A DNA stretch of 64,000 nucleotides. It comes from Lutibacter sp. B1 (lineage in GTDB: Bacteria; Bacteroidota; Bacteroidia; Flavobacteriales; Flavobacteriaceae). A model generated the notes under the pieces. That model worked only from the letters and a program-made list of their open reading frames with translations. It did no database searches and was not told the DNA's origin. Position numbers and translations under genes: made by a program. Position 1 is the stretch's first letter. Each line of letters begins with the position of its first letter. The stretch is from contig NZ_JAAZUI010000018.1 in the NCBI RefSeq assembly GCF_012524075.1, forward strand, positions 1 to 64,000. Direction: 5' to 3'. Positions 756-3,044 of the stretch are shown here, in pieces.

Positions 756-1607
756 TTATTCCGGTTTATAAGTTGCTTGTGAAACTGTAGTATTTTTTAA
801 ATTAGTTACTCCTGCATTTTTATACTCAAAATTGGTTAACAAAGGTAAATTATTAATAGAACTATCAATATTTCCAACAAATTTATTATTATTTAAAAGT
901 AAAACTTCTAAACTTGTTAATTTGCCTAGTTTGCTCGGAATTTCACCTTCAAATACATTATTTGCTAAAGCAAGTACTTTTAAATTTGATAAATCGCTTA
1001 GTTCATCAGGAATAAAACCAAACATTGAATTATCAAGCAAACTTAATACTTTTAAATTCTTTAAACTTTTTATTTCAGGAGATATGATGCCAATTAGCTT
1101 ATTACTACTTAAATGTAAAACTTCTAATTTAGCCAGATTGTAAATAGAGTTTGGTAAATTACCTGTAATATTATTGTTATACAATACTAATTTTTTCAAG
1201 TTTTTTAAAGCACCAATATTGGAAGGAATATCTCCTCCAATCTGATTCATATAAAGCTGTAATGTTTCTAAAGAGGATATAGTTGTTAATTCAGCAGGTA
1301 TTACACCGTCAATTTTATTAAATCCTAAATTTAGATGTTTTAAAGATTTTAAATTTCCAATTGATGAAGGTATTGAACCTTTTAAATTATTCATACTTAG
1401 GTTTATTCCTGTAACAGAATTATTTTCAATAGTTACACCATACCAAGAGGTAACATCTTTTTTTAAATTCCATGAAATATTCCAATTTTTACCATTGGTT
1501 GATTTGTAAAAATCTATTAAAGCAGTTTTTTCAACATCAGAAATCTGTGAAAATGAAAGTGAAGAAAATGCTATCAAAAACAAAATTAAAGCAACTGTTT
1601 TTTTCAT
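756..1607 (-). CDS. Secreted leucine-rich-repeat protein, copy 1
   Basis: This is a 283-residue protein with a signal peptide (residues 1-20, ending SFSQ). A short N-terminal cap (about 24-62) has the pattern LIDFYKSTNGKNW...W.GV seen in Bacteroidota LRR proteins. About eight 24-residue repeats of plant-like type (LxxLxxLxLxxNxLxGxIPxx) cover 63-260. The C-terminus ends without a type IX sorting domain or a membrane anchor. It is about 70% identical by eye, without gaps, to the 283-residue product of 1998-2849, so the pair is a tandem duplication. Its function is unknown; such repeats usually bind proteins or glycans. The gene has its own terminator, and its upstream region holds a conserved module shared with copy 2. 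Confidence 0.85.
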   Translation of the reverse strand: MKKTVALILFLIAFSSLSFSQISDVEKTALIDFYKSTNGKNWNISWNLKKDVTSWYGVTIENNSVTGINLSMNNLKGSIPSSIGNLKSLKHLNLGFNKIDGVIPAELTTISSLETLQLYMNQIGGDIPSNIGALKNLKKLVLYNNNITGNLPNSIYNLAKLEVLHLSSNKLIGIISPEIKSLKNLKVLSLLDNSMFGFIPDELSDLSNLKVLALANNVFEGEIPSKLGKLTSLEVLLLNNNKFVGNIDSSINNLPLLTNFEYKNAGVTNLKNTTVSQATYKPE

Positions 1608-1689
1608 CTTAATTATAGATTTTCAGGTTATAATTTTCTATGACACTTATCTAAATTAAAGAAAGATTTTCAAAAAAACAAAATATCGA

Positions 1690-1718
1690 ACCATTTATAG
1701 TGTTTTCTTAACCATTTA
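1690..1718 (-). promoter_or_regulatory. 21-bp-spaced direct repeat upstream of LRR copy 1
   Basis: TAAATGGT (minus strand) occurs at 1690-1697 and again at 1711-1718, a period of exactly 21 bases (two helical turns). The nearer copy is 83 bases upstream of the start codon. The same pair at the same spacing and nearly the same distance precedes LRR copy 2 (2934-2962). Paired direct repeats with this period are typical of LytTR-type and similar regulators, although the motif does not clearly match the AgrA/LytR consensus. Confidence 0.55.
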
Positions 1719-1768
1719 TTAATTTAAAACAGTTTTAATTTAAAATTTTAAAATCAAAAAAACACTAT

Positions 1769-1800
1769 GTTTACGGGTGCTTAACGTAACTTTAGTTACA
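1769..1800. promoter_or_regulatory. Conserved upstream block with GTAAC-N4-GTTAC palindrome (LRR copy 1)
   Basis: The block reads GTTTAC at 1769-1774 and then the palindrome GTAAC-TTTA-GTTAC at 1786-1799. The equivalent block before LRR copy 2 (3013-3044) has the same spacing, and each lies about 180-195 bases upstream of its gene. A 5-4-5 palindrome is the geometry of Crp/Fnr-family sites. The remainder of the 390-base gap between the LRR genes holds only the direct repeats (1690-1718) and the terminator of copy 2 (1944-1972). Confidence 0.5.
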
Positions 1801-1943
1801 ATATACCGGTTACTAATTATTTTTTAAGGTTTATGAAATAAATTTACAGAAAGTGCTGAATTTTAAAATAAATCATTAAATATAATGATATTTAATTAGT
1901 TTGGGTGATGATAAATTTTCTTTAGATTTTGTAAAAAATAAAT

Positions 1944-1972
1944 AAAAAAATCACTCAAAAAGAGTGATTTTT
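1944..1972 (-). terminator. Intrinsic terminator of the second LRR gene
   Basis: On the minus strand AAATCACTC pairs with GAGTGATTT around a TTTTT loop and is followed by a T run. It is the same hairpin type as at 701-733, consistent with duplication of the entire transcription unit. Confidence 0.75.
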
Positions 1973-1997
1973 AACGAAAACTTTAATTTAAATAAAA

Positions 1998-2849
1998 TTA
2001 TTCTGGTTCAAATGTGGTTTGTGTTATTGCAATATTAGTTAAACTTATTGTATTTGATTTTTTATAGTCAAAATTTGTTAAAAGTGGTAAGTTAATGATA
2101 GAATTATCTATTGATCCTACAAATTTATTATTAGTAAGTAATAAAGTTTCTAGGTTAGTTAATTTGCTCAACTCATTTGGAATTTCTCCTTCAAATACGT
2201 TGTTTGCTAAAGCAAGTTCTTTTAACTGAGTTAAATTGCTAATTTCACTTGGTATAAAACCAAACATTGAATTGTCAAATAAACTTAAAGTTTCAAGTTT
2301 ATTCAAATTTTTAATATCTGGAGATATAGTACCAATTAATTCATTACTACTTAATTGCAATACTTCTAAATTGGTTAACTCATATAAAGAATTTGGCAAA
2401 TTTCCTGTTAGCATATTATTGAATAATACTATTTTTTTTAGGTTAATTAATGCACCAATATTAGAAGGAATATCTCCTTCAAGTTGATTCATATATAACT
2501 GTAATGTTTCAAGCGATTCTATAATTGTTATTTCAGAAGGAATTTCACCATTTAATTTATTGAAACCTAAATTTAAATGTTTTAATGATTTAAGATTTCC
2601 AATAGAAGATGGTATTGTACCTCTTAAATTATTCATGCTTAGGTTCAGTTCTGTAACTGTATTGTTTTCAATAGTTACACCGTTCCAAGTACTAACATCA
2701 GTATTCAAATTCCATGAAGTATTCCAATTTTCTCCATCAGTAGATCTATATAAATCAACTAAAGCATTTTTTTCCAAATCTGAGATTTGAGAATAGCAAA
2801 GAGGGGAAATTGCTATTAAAAAAATGATTAATGAGGTTATTTTTTTCAT
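1998..2849 (-). CDS. Secreted leucine-rich-repeat protein, copy 2
   Basis: This 283-residue protein has the same plan as copy 1: a signal peptide (1-20, ending CYSQ), an N-terminal cap with LVDLYRSTDGENWNTSW, and about eight 24-residue repeats to about residue 260. The match to copy 1 is gap-free, with substitutions concentrated on variable repeat positions and in the last 20 residues. It has its own terminator and a promoter region with the duplicated control elements. The two copies probably bind different ligands or are alternatively expressed, but that is inference. No lipobox or sorting signal is visible. Confidence 0.85.
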   Translation of the reverse strand: MKKITSLIIFLIAISPLCYSQISDLEKNALVDLYRSTDGENWNTSWNLNTDVSTWNGVTIENNTVTELNLSMNNLRGTIPSSIGNLKSLKHLNLGFNKLNGEIPSEITIIESLETLQLYMNQLEGDIPSNIGALINLKKIVLFNNMLTGNLPNSLYELTNLEVLQLSSNELIGTISPDIKNLNKLETLSLFDNSMFGFIPSEISNLTQLKELALANNVFEGEIPNELSKLTNLETLLLTNNKFVGSIDNSIINLPLLTNFDYKKSNTISLTNIAITQTTFEPE

Positions 2850-2933
2850 AATGTTTTGGATTTAAGGGGTTCATGTTTTGCAAAATCCTATAGCTAAAGT
2901 AAATTATTATTTTCAATTTACCAAATAAATACT

Positions 2934-2962
2934 ACCATTTATTGTGTTTATTTTACCATTTA
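2934..2962 (-). promoter_or_regulatory. 21-bp-spaced direct repeat upstream of LRR copy 2
   Basis: TAAATGGT (minus strand) lies at 2934-2941 and 2955-2962, again 21 bases apart, with the nearer copy 85 bases before the start codon. It corresponds to 1690-1718 before copy 1. Confidence 0.55.
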
Positions 2963-3012
2963 TTAATTTTTTGTCATTTTTTAAGGTTTGGTAAAATATT
3001 TATAACGGTATA

Positions 3013-3044
3013 GTTTACAAGTGTTCTAAGTAATATAGGTTACA
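3013..3044. promoter_or_regulatory. Conserved upstream block with GTAAT-N4-GTTAC palindrome (LRR copy 2 / bshB1)
   Basis: GTTTAC at 3013-3018 is followed at 3030-3043 by GTAAT-ATAG-GTTAC, one mismatch from the palindrome at 1786-1799 and with identical internal spacing. It sits in the divergent region between LRR copy 2 and bshB1, and could act on either. Confidence 0.45.

Follow-up and report, generated by a model that had tools for sequence, protein, structure and literature searches.

What controls a pair of neighboring genes for leucine-rich repeat (LRR) proteins in Lutibacter sp. B1? The genes, LRR1 and LRR2, lie near the start of contig NZ_JAAZUI010000018.1, within the 64,000-nucleotide stretch of DNA analyzed here (the window), which belongs to a 3.42 Mb assembly of 194 contigs. 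A first-pass annotation of the window had proposed that both genes were duplicated together with two separate regulatory DNA sites, a direct repeat and, further upstream, a GTTTAC block. In our comparisons the direct repeat stood as a site and the GTTTAC block fell, and a second conserved layer appears to lie in the mRNA, in a C-rich leader element that the annotation had not named. The reading that we favor, with a probability of about 0.72, is that the LRR genes are covered by a LytTR regulon with its own base-pairing small RNA (sRNA), similar to agr/RNAIII. It is built on sites, promoter-like boxes, conservation, synteny, predicted structure, complementarity and co-occurrence, all read from the sequences.

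LRR1 (756..1607, minus strand) and LRR2 (1998..2849, minus strand) each encode a 283 aa protein, identified by its open reading frame (ORF) and by matches to Pfam LRR families. Both are probably secreted, with N-termini that resembled signal peptides by eye. As the annotation had stated, they are paralogues with 70% identity in a gap-free alignment. Matches to LRR2 were found in 29 of 38 Lutibacter genomes. The promoter set comprised 30 loci, minus two with partial genes (L163 and L164), giving 28 promoters from 27 genomes.

The predicted 21-bp-spaced TAAATGGT repeat was found upstream of both genes. Before LRR1 it occupies 1690..1720 (minus strand, AATAAATGGT-N11-TATAAATGGT) and ends 82 bp before the ATG; before LRR2 it occupies 2934..2964 (minus strand, AATAAATGGT-N11-AATAAATGGT) and ends 84 bp before the ATG. 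The complement of the LRR1 repeat is ACCATTTAT-N12-ACCATTTAT. All 28 Lutibacter LRR promoters kept the pair with its 21-bp period. It ended 80-84 bp before the ATG and departed from the relaxed consensus WAYAAAYGGT at 0-2 positions; on the other strand, these arrays read ACCRTTTRT-N12-ACCRTTTRT. Information content averaged 1.51 bits in the half-site columns, compared with 0.31 bits in 60 upstream columns and 0.33 bits in the spacer. The claim that spacing was kept amid diverged DNA therefore holds for the repeat pair, but not for the GTTTAC block.

The repeat also occurred elsewhere in the genome and in relatives. With at most two mismatches, the 20-letter motif AATAAAYGGT-N11-AATAAAYGGT had 10 matches in the B1 genome against 0 for the control. 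It was fixed after these matches had been seen and then tested on other genomes, yielding 108 matches against 23 for the reversed-pattern control in 18 genomes of the same genus, and 7 against 5 in 12 genomes from other families of the order. The motif was also above control in G439 (15 vs 1), G363 (11 vs 4) and G334 (8 vs 2). In some arrays the good copies, spaced by 21 bp, numbered three or four (four in L126).

Sites of LytTR proteins are generally direct repeats of ~9 bp with a 12-bp spacer, and promoters of Bacteroidota have the consensus TTTG/TAnnTTTG. The Lutibacter arrays share this repeat length and spacer (21-bp period) and resemble LytTR half-sites. They lie directly upstream of a -35/-33 element in the LRR promoters. 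For LRR2, the predicted promoter is at 2894..2925 (minus strand), with TTTG at 2922-2925 and TACTTTAG at 2894-2901, 8 and 32 bp from the array end; for LRR1, it is at 1651..1682 (minus strand), with TTTG at 1679-1682 and TAATTTAG at 1651-1658, at offsets of 7 and 31 bp. TTTG followed 7-9 bp past the array in 26 of the 28 promoters, and TAnnTTWG 31-33 bp past it in 25, the exceptions being found in G002, G008, G011 and G017. We estimate that transcription starts ~45 bp after the array, so that the array centre is near -60; the direct repeats of AgrA are centred at about -60 as well (PMC4227749, partial text). The BrsR repeat, ACCACTTAT-12 bp-ACCGCTTAT, shows LytTR half-sites and spacing, and the complement of the Lutibacter array is close to the BrsR repeats quoted in the available part of PMC6193735. 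The LytTR-like direct-repeat binder suggested in the first-pass annotation is well supported as a reading by these half-sites and their spacing, by the array just 5' of the -33 box, by the genus-wide motif and by an array at a LytTR locus, described below.

The second proposed DNA site fared differently. The letters GTTTAC-N11-GTAAC/T-N4-GTTAC were present 162-194 bp upstream of both LRR genes (1769..1799 before LRR1 and 3013..3043 before LRR2, both minus strand), but the block was unsupported as a conserved element. Of its 31 letters, 21 are the same in both copies, a likeness that was equaled in register in 22 of 300 resampled upstream pairs. With the offset left free, the best 31-mer had 22 identical letters, a value reached by 12 of 60 resampled pairs. 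All 26 orthologous promoters searched lacked the block, their best matches having 9-12 of the 16 specified letters, as in shuffles. In the distal upstream DNA of LRR1 and LRR2, where the block is located, 12-15 of 23 letters were identical per segment, a general residual similarity. Given near-chance likeness between the paralogues and absence from 26/26 orthologues, we reject the block as a second regulatory site, and it is best read as a residue of the duplication. The annotation had named absence from orthologous LRR promoters as a result that would refute its proposal; by this criterion the repeat was upheld and the block was not.

The genome encodes nine LytTR proteins. By synteny and conservation, the likely regulator of the arrays is a LytTR response regulator encoded outside the window, at C129:16935-17669, and followed by a histidine kinase of the 7TMR-DISM type (His_kinase domain). 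Orthologues with at least 88% identity were present in 36 of the 38 genus genomes, B1 included; the two without were G004 (86% complete, 0 motif matches) and G016 (62% complete, 2 motif matches). Twenty LytTR loci were collected, and L282, whose range missed the place after the kinase gene, was omitted. In all 19 remaining loci at least one array (at most two mismatches) followed the kinase gene and ended 71-72 bp before a conserved GTCAAGAGGGG; three loci had a further array copy 21 bp nearer to GTCAAGAGGGG. These arrays read ACCRTTTRT on the strand of the sRNA, opposite in orientation to the LRR arrays.

Targets were read from 43 chosen array loci, a subset of those found. Besides LRR genes, arrays preceded genes for a CAP-domain lipoprotein, a 49-aa protein, dihydrolipoyl dehydrogenase (lpd), an M4 metalloprotease with a GEVED domain and a small lipoprotein, as well as a few other families in at least one of the genomes read. 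Members of the 49-aa family with multi-copy arrays were located at L040:3928-4077, L116:2059-2208, L117:1678-1827 and L126:2112-2261. The 49-aa protein of B1 had no Pfam match, and the promoter of its gene faces a gene that by eye resembles a PAS-type regulator.

Just downstream of the LytTR-kinase operon of B1, at C129:19544-19661, lies a candidate sRNA locus of ~120 nt. A stretch of 117-129 nt was conserved here in all 19 loci covering the place, with a mean column identity of 88%, and copies were present in three further genomes (L106, L113 and L384). The predicted layout comprises a TATATTTG-like box, a first hairpin with the loop GGGG, a second hairpin with the loop UUUGGGGUU and a terminator with a T-run. 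The box, TAT[A/C]TTT, stood 20 bp before GTCAAG in 19/19 loci. In the predicted fold, four pairs were changed on both sides (13 cells), a level reached by 0 of 500 shuffles with kinship ignored; three of these pairs are in the terminator. Further pair types were unexceptional (71 of 500 shuffles).

ORFs of at least 12 codons occurred in 14 of the 19 loci and none in five, and their length and frame varied. A small ORF was rejected as an explanation of the locus because neither length nor frame was kept. Covariance models of Rfam 15, run on four sRNA loci and the B1 locus, gave no family at the gathering score; the B1 locus came to 17 bits at best, where 70 were required. With its own promoter-like box, an intrinsic terminator, a conserved fold and no conserved ORF, the ~120-nt RNA has the features of a trans-acting base-pairing sRNA, which it probably is. 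It is apparently undescribed; among the titles and abstract starts listed by searches of open-access literature, none concerned this RNA or a LytTR-linked sRNA in Bacteroidota.

Two side observations concern the surroundings of this RNA. Between the kinase gene and the sRNA, part of the Lutibacter genomes and several others (L274, L113, L388, L391, L392 and L394-L398) have a small ORF of ~80-106 codons, with letters that are similar by eye. At L041:3070-3300 (C129:187069 onward), an array and a promoter-like box precede ~130 nt without a listed ORF, which carry a CAACCCTAAAG element and a strong terminator-like repeat. This stretch may encode another small RNA, which might act as a sponge for the one with G loops.

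In a search of 296 genomes of the order with strict filters, a model of the RNA, R1, matched only B1 and G233. A broader model, R2, was then built and matched 19 of 40 genomes, 13 of them outside its training. The 21 without a match were G004, G016, G124, ten genomes of genus g14, two of Maribacter and six more from the family. RNAs similar to the sRNA were found at the corresponding LytTR-kinase locus in other genera, with two loops in G334 and one loop in the others read. Tandem pairs occurred in G439, G470, G472 and G474, and several one-loop genomes hold two copies of the one-loop RNA. Across genera, no doubly changed pairs were found in the loop-2 stem, the 3' arm of which hardly varies; this near-invariance fits a pairing role and gives no covariation support there.

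The presumed partner of the loops is a C-rich element in the leaders of regulon genes. In LRR2 it is AACCCCT (2865..2871, minus strand), a 7-nt complement of the sRNA; the LRR1 leader has no CCC run. In LRR genes the element occupies about -22 to -8, immediately ahead of the start codon. For comparison, leaders were taken from ORFs of at least 150 codons in the fetched loci and the window, with the first ATG as the start; removal of regulon families by name pattern left 273 control leaders, some of which may be orthologues of each other. CCCC occurred at -45..-1 in 21 of 28 LRR leaders compared with 7 of 273 non-regulon leaders (Fisher 1e-20, which is overstated since the leaders are related). 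Two C runs were present in 17 of 28 core LRR leaders, and one in seven of eight non-core leaders; the RNA has two GGGG loops in Lutibacter and one in the eight non-core genomes, several of which hold two copies of it. Predicted duplex energies with the sRNA averaged -19.0 in the 28 LRR leaders, against -16.3 after shuffling and -12.2 in the 273 other leaders; LRR1 was at -10.6.

Complementarity was most extensive in the CAP-lipoprotein genes. All ten leaders, that of L127 included, had CCCC at -60..-1, up to three times. Their longest exact complements to the sRNA were 18, 15, 14, 13, 12, 12, 10, 9, 9 and 7 nt. In six of the ten the exact complement was thus 12-18 nt long, with one AT-rich case among those of 12 nt; this was so in 0 of 273 controls (60-nt leaders, maximum 11). 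Among these complements, CCAAAACCCCTC matches hairpin 1 and AAATAAATCAACCCCAAA matches hairpin 2, and the result was the same for the eight of ten leaders tested against the own-genome sRNA. Leader complementarity beyond background was strong for the CAP lipoprotein and weak for LRR2 alone. The leaders of the LytTR genes themselves (L274-L293) had ACCC within 60 bases before the ATG in 13 of 20 cases and CCCC in one; the LytTR gene leader is a possible feedback target of the sRNA.

Both layers were followed outside core Lutibacter. Among L217-L231, a fragment (L227) and a core Lutibacter locus (L229) were dropped, which left 13 LRR orthologues with 38-50% identity and a kept start region, two of them from Lutibacter-labelled metagenome-assembled genomes; L232-L273 are more distant. 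Eight of these non-core genes were preceded by a pair with at most two mismatches (five genes), a weaker pair (two) or a single copy (one), and their leaders had CCCC just before the ATG in seven cases and CCC in one. Wherever a non-core genome had a C run before its LRR gene, R2, from whose training these genomes were held out, found the RNA (8 of 8, E 1e-8 to 4e-7). Five Maribacter LRR orthologues had neither a coding-strand pair nor a C run, and in the two of these five genomes searched with R2 the RNA was not found.

In G233, loop and leader differ together. Its sRNA loop is AAUCUUUUGGGGUG; the leader of an array-bearing 51-aa ORF, CACCCCAAAAGATT, is a 14-nt exact complement to this loop, and that of a kinase gene of the locus, CCACCCCAAAA, an 11-nt exact complement. 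Both leaders match the Lutibacter loop over 8 nt only. This pattern suggests covariation, in a small sample of two leaders from one genome.

According to the reading that we favor, the C129 LytTR regulator would bind the ACCRTTTRT-N12-ACCRTTTRT arrays beside the -33 box and activate the LRR genes and others, several of which code for proteins that are secreted or at the surface (CAP-domain lipoprotein, M4 metalloprotease, 49-aa protein). It would also drive the sRNA from the fixed-distance array downstream of its own operon. Two hairpin loops of the sRNA (a single one in most of the other genera read) are predicted to expose GGGG and would pair with the ACCCC/CCCCAAAG elements that many regulon targets have in their leaders, right before the start codon. 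Since the C element is at about -21 to -8, a block of translation initiation is the likeliest effect, and the circuit would be an incoherent feed-forward loop. Activation by the sRNA is possible, because deletion of Rfp18 lowered its targets (PMC9723704, partial text). LRR2 would retain both layers, and LRR1 the DNA site without a C run; both genes would be switched by LytTR, and only LRR2 would answer to the sRNA. The model predicts that this particular LytTR protein binds the arrays, that the sRNA is transcribed and pairs directly with its targets, and which sign each of the two effects has.

Several observations weigh against this reading. At the DNA level, the loose pattern AATGGT-N15-AATGGT with one mismatch was not enriched in the B1 genome (72 vs 92 in the control), nor was the motif at three mismatches (20 vs 15); in G233 (8 vs 10) and G124 (11 vs 10) it was not above control, and in G333 hardly so (7 vs 4). 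The array of the B1 sRNA itself has two mismatches under the relaxed consensus. Assignment of the regulator among nine LytTR proteins rests on synteny and conservation, measured for the C129 protein alone. As for the RNA, G124 has the LytTR gene and arrays and no R2 match, and sRNA copies in G014, G333 (both), G334, G473 and G439 (one) have no upstream array at up to three mismatches. On the leader side, CCCC was missing from 7 of 28 LRR leaders and from other site-bearing leaders, namely lpd (5/5), the IPEVAL family (3/3), the 49-aa protein (3/4), the M4 protease (1/2) and the small lipoprotein (1/2); the LRR leader of G233 has no C run. CHACCCCWAA was not enriched genome-wide (20 vs 17 for the control in G000). 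Complements of 9 nt occurred in 13 of 28 LRR leaders, and also in 28 of 273 controls. The longest exact complement of LRR2 is 7 nt, and its duplex energy (-17.8) was no better than that of its own shuffles (-18.1). The duplex gain of the LRR leaders over shuffles was modest, so the C content carries part of the signal.

Some of these points would also be expected if the DNA layer alone were real, with a LytTR regulon in which the C-rich leaders are features linked to translation initiation or the promoter and the RNA has other targets or another role. The modest duplex gain for LRR leaders, absent for LRR2, the lack of genome-wide enrichment of C-rich decamers and the several site-bearing families without a C element all favor this view. 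We nevertheless consider it unlikely, given the exact complements of 12-18 nt, to both hairpins, in six of ten CAP leaders and in no control, the loop-leader covariation of G233, and the joint presence or absence of sRNA and C run in the 10 non-core genomes tested. A slightly less likely alternative keeps both layers and changes the regulator: another of the nine LytTR proteins would bind the arrays, for example that of the kinase-Hpt-LytTR locus L032, which is followed by a CAP-lipoprotein paralogue, and the LytTR-kinase operon beside the sRNA would be a target or a bystander. Yet the L032 paralogue has no CCCC in the 200 bp upstream, and the sRNA-linked LytTR protein is kept at ≥88% identity in 36/38 genomes, with an array at fixed spacing at its locus. 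The L032 locus itself (L032:1075-2402; kinase, Hpt-like protein, LytTR) is a second LytTR locus in its own right.

The conserved RNA might also act in cis, as the leader (attenuator) of the gene that follows, recO or porZ, which in Lutibacter is on the same strand, after the terminator. This is improbable, as 9 of 13 genomes that are non-Lutibacter or non-core have their next listed ORF on the other strand, four of the 13 have two tandem copies with a terminator on each, and a separate TATATTTG box precedes recO/porZ in five aligned Lutibacter loci. Least probable of all, to the point of being negligible, is that recent duplication alone made the two LRR promoters alike: the residual similarity of their distal DNA agrees with it, but 26 other Lutibacter genomes have the array in the same position and do not keep the flanks. 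We reject recent duplication for the array; for the GTTTAC block it is still the best explanation.

Among the closest known systems is agr/RNAIII of Staphylococcus aureus, which runs virulence in Staphylococcus. The published parts available to us describe a LytTR response regulator, AgrA, with direct repeats centred near -60 at P2/P3 (PMC4227749), a regulatory RNA encoded beside the two-component genes, and hairpin loops of one letter type that reach the initiation regions of mRNAs for surface and secreted proteins (PMC2837412). Unlike in RNAIII, the Lutibacter loops are G-rich and the targets C-rich, the reverse of the RNAIII arrangement. The Lutibacter RNA is ~120 nt long, the kinase is of the 7TMR-DISM type, the phylum is different, and sites of the regulator are also found at many of the targets of the RNA. 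The LytTR Regulatory Systems HdrRM and BrsRM of Streptococcus mutans share 9-bp repeats with a 12-bp spacer directly upstream of -35; they differ in having a membrane inhibitor protein and no histidine kinase, and no linked sRNA is mentioned in the accessible part of PMC6193735.

Two sRNAs of Bacteroidota can be compared as well. Rfp18 of Flavobacterium psychrophilum, compared here by description only, is a structured sRNA from the same family of bacteria, whose predicted targets, reached through a single stem-loop, include metalloproteases and an adhesin; its deletion lowered two target mRNAs, and LytTR is not named in the main text of PMC9723704. The ten genomes of genus g14, perhaps Flavobacterium, had no match to R2. 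GibS of Bacteroides thetaiotaomicron pairs near start codons, as the Lutibacter sRNA is predicted to do, but its seed is the unstructured 5' part, whereas the Lutibacter sRNA would use hairpin loops (PMC7366714, partial text).

Little is known of how Bacteroidota control their genes after transcription. Here a conserved sRNA comes with a candidate regulator, a short, recognizable target tag and natural cases of loss and covariation, which makes the proposed circuit directly testable. With odds slightly better than even, flavobacteria may have independently built a two-tier circuit of the agr/RNAIII type, in which a LytTR DNA switch and a G-loop sRNA acting on a C-rich tag meet in the same genes, the number of loops is maybe mirrored by the number of C runs, and a duplicated gene escapes by loss of the tag. 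If so, the agr-style design of LytTR plus RNA would not be confined to Firmicutes, and the LRR, CAP-lipoprotein and metalloprotease genes of Lutibacter would have a proposed regulon.

Near the contig start, at 169-600 of the window (minus strand), a 143-aa ORF without a match in a Pfam search resembles, by eye, an N-terminal portion of an efflux adaptor; it ends early and is possibly truncated.

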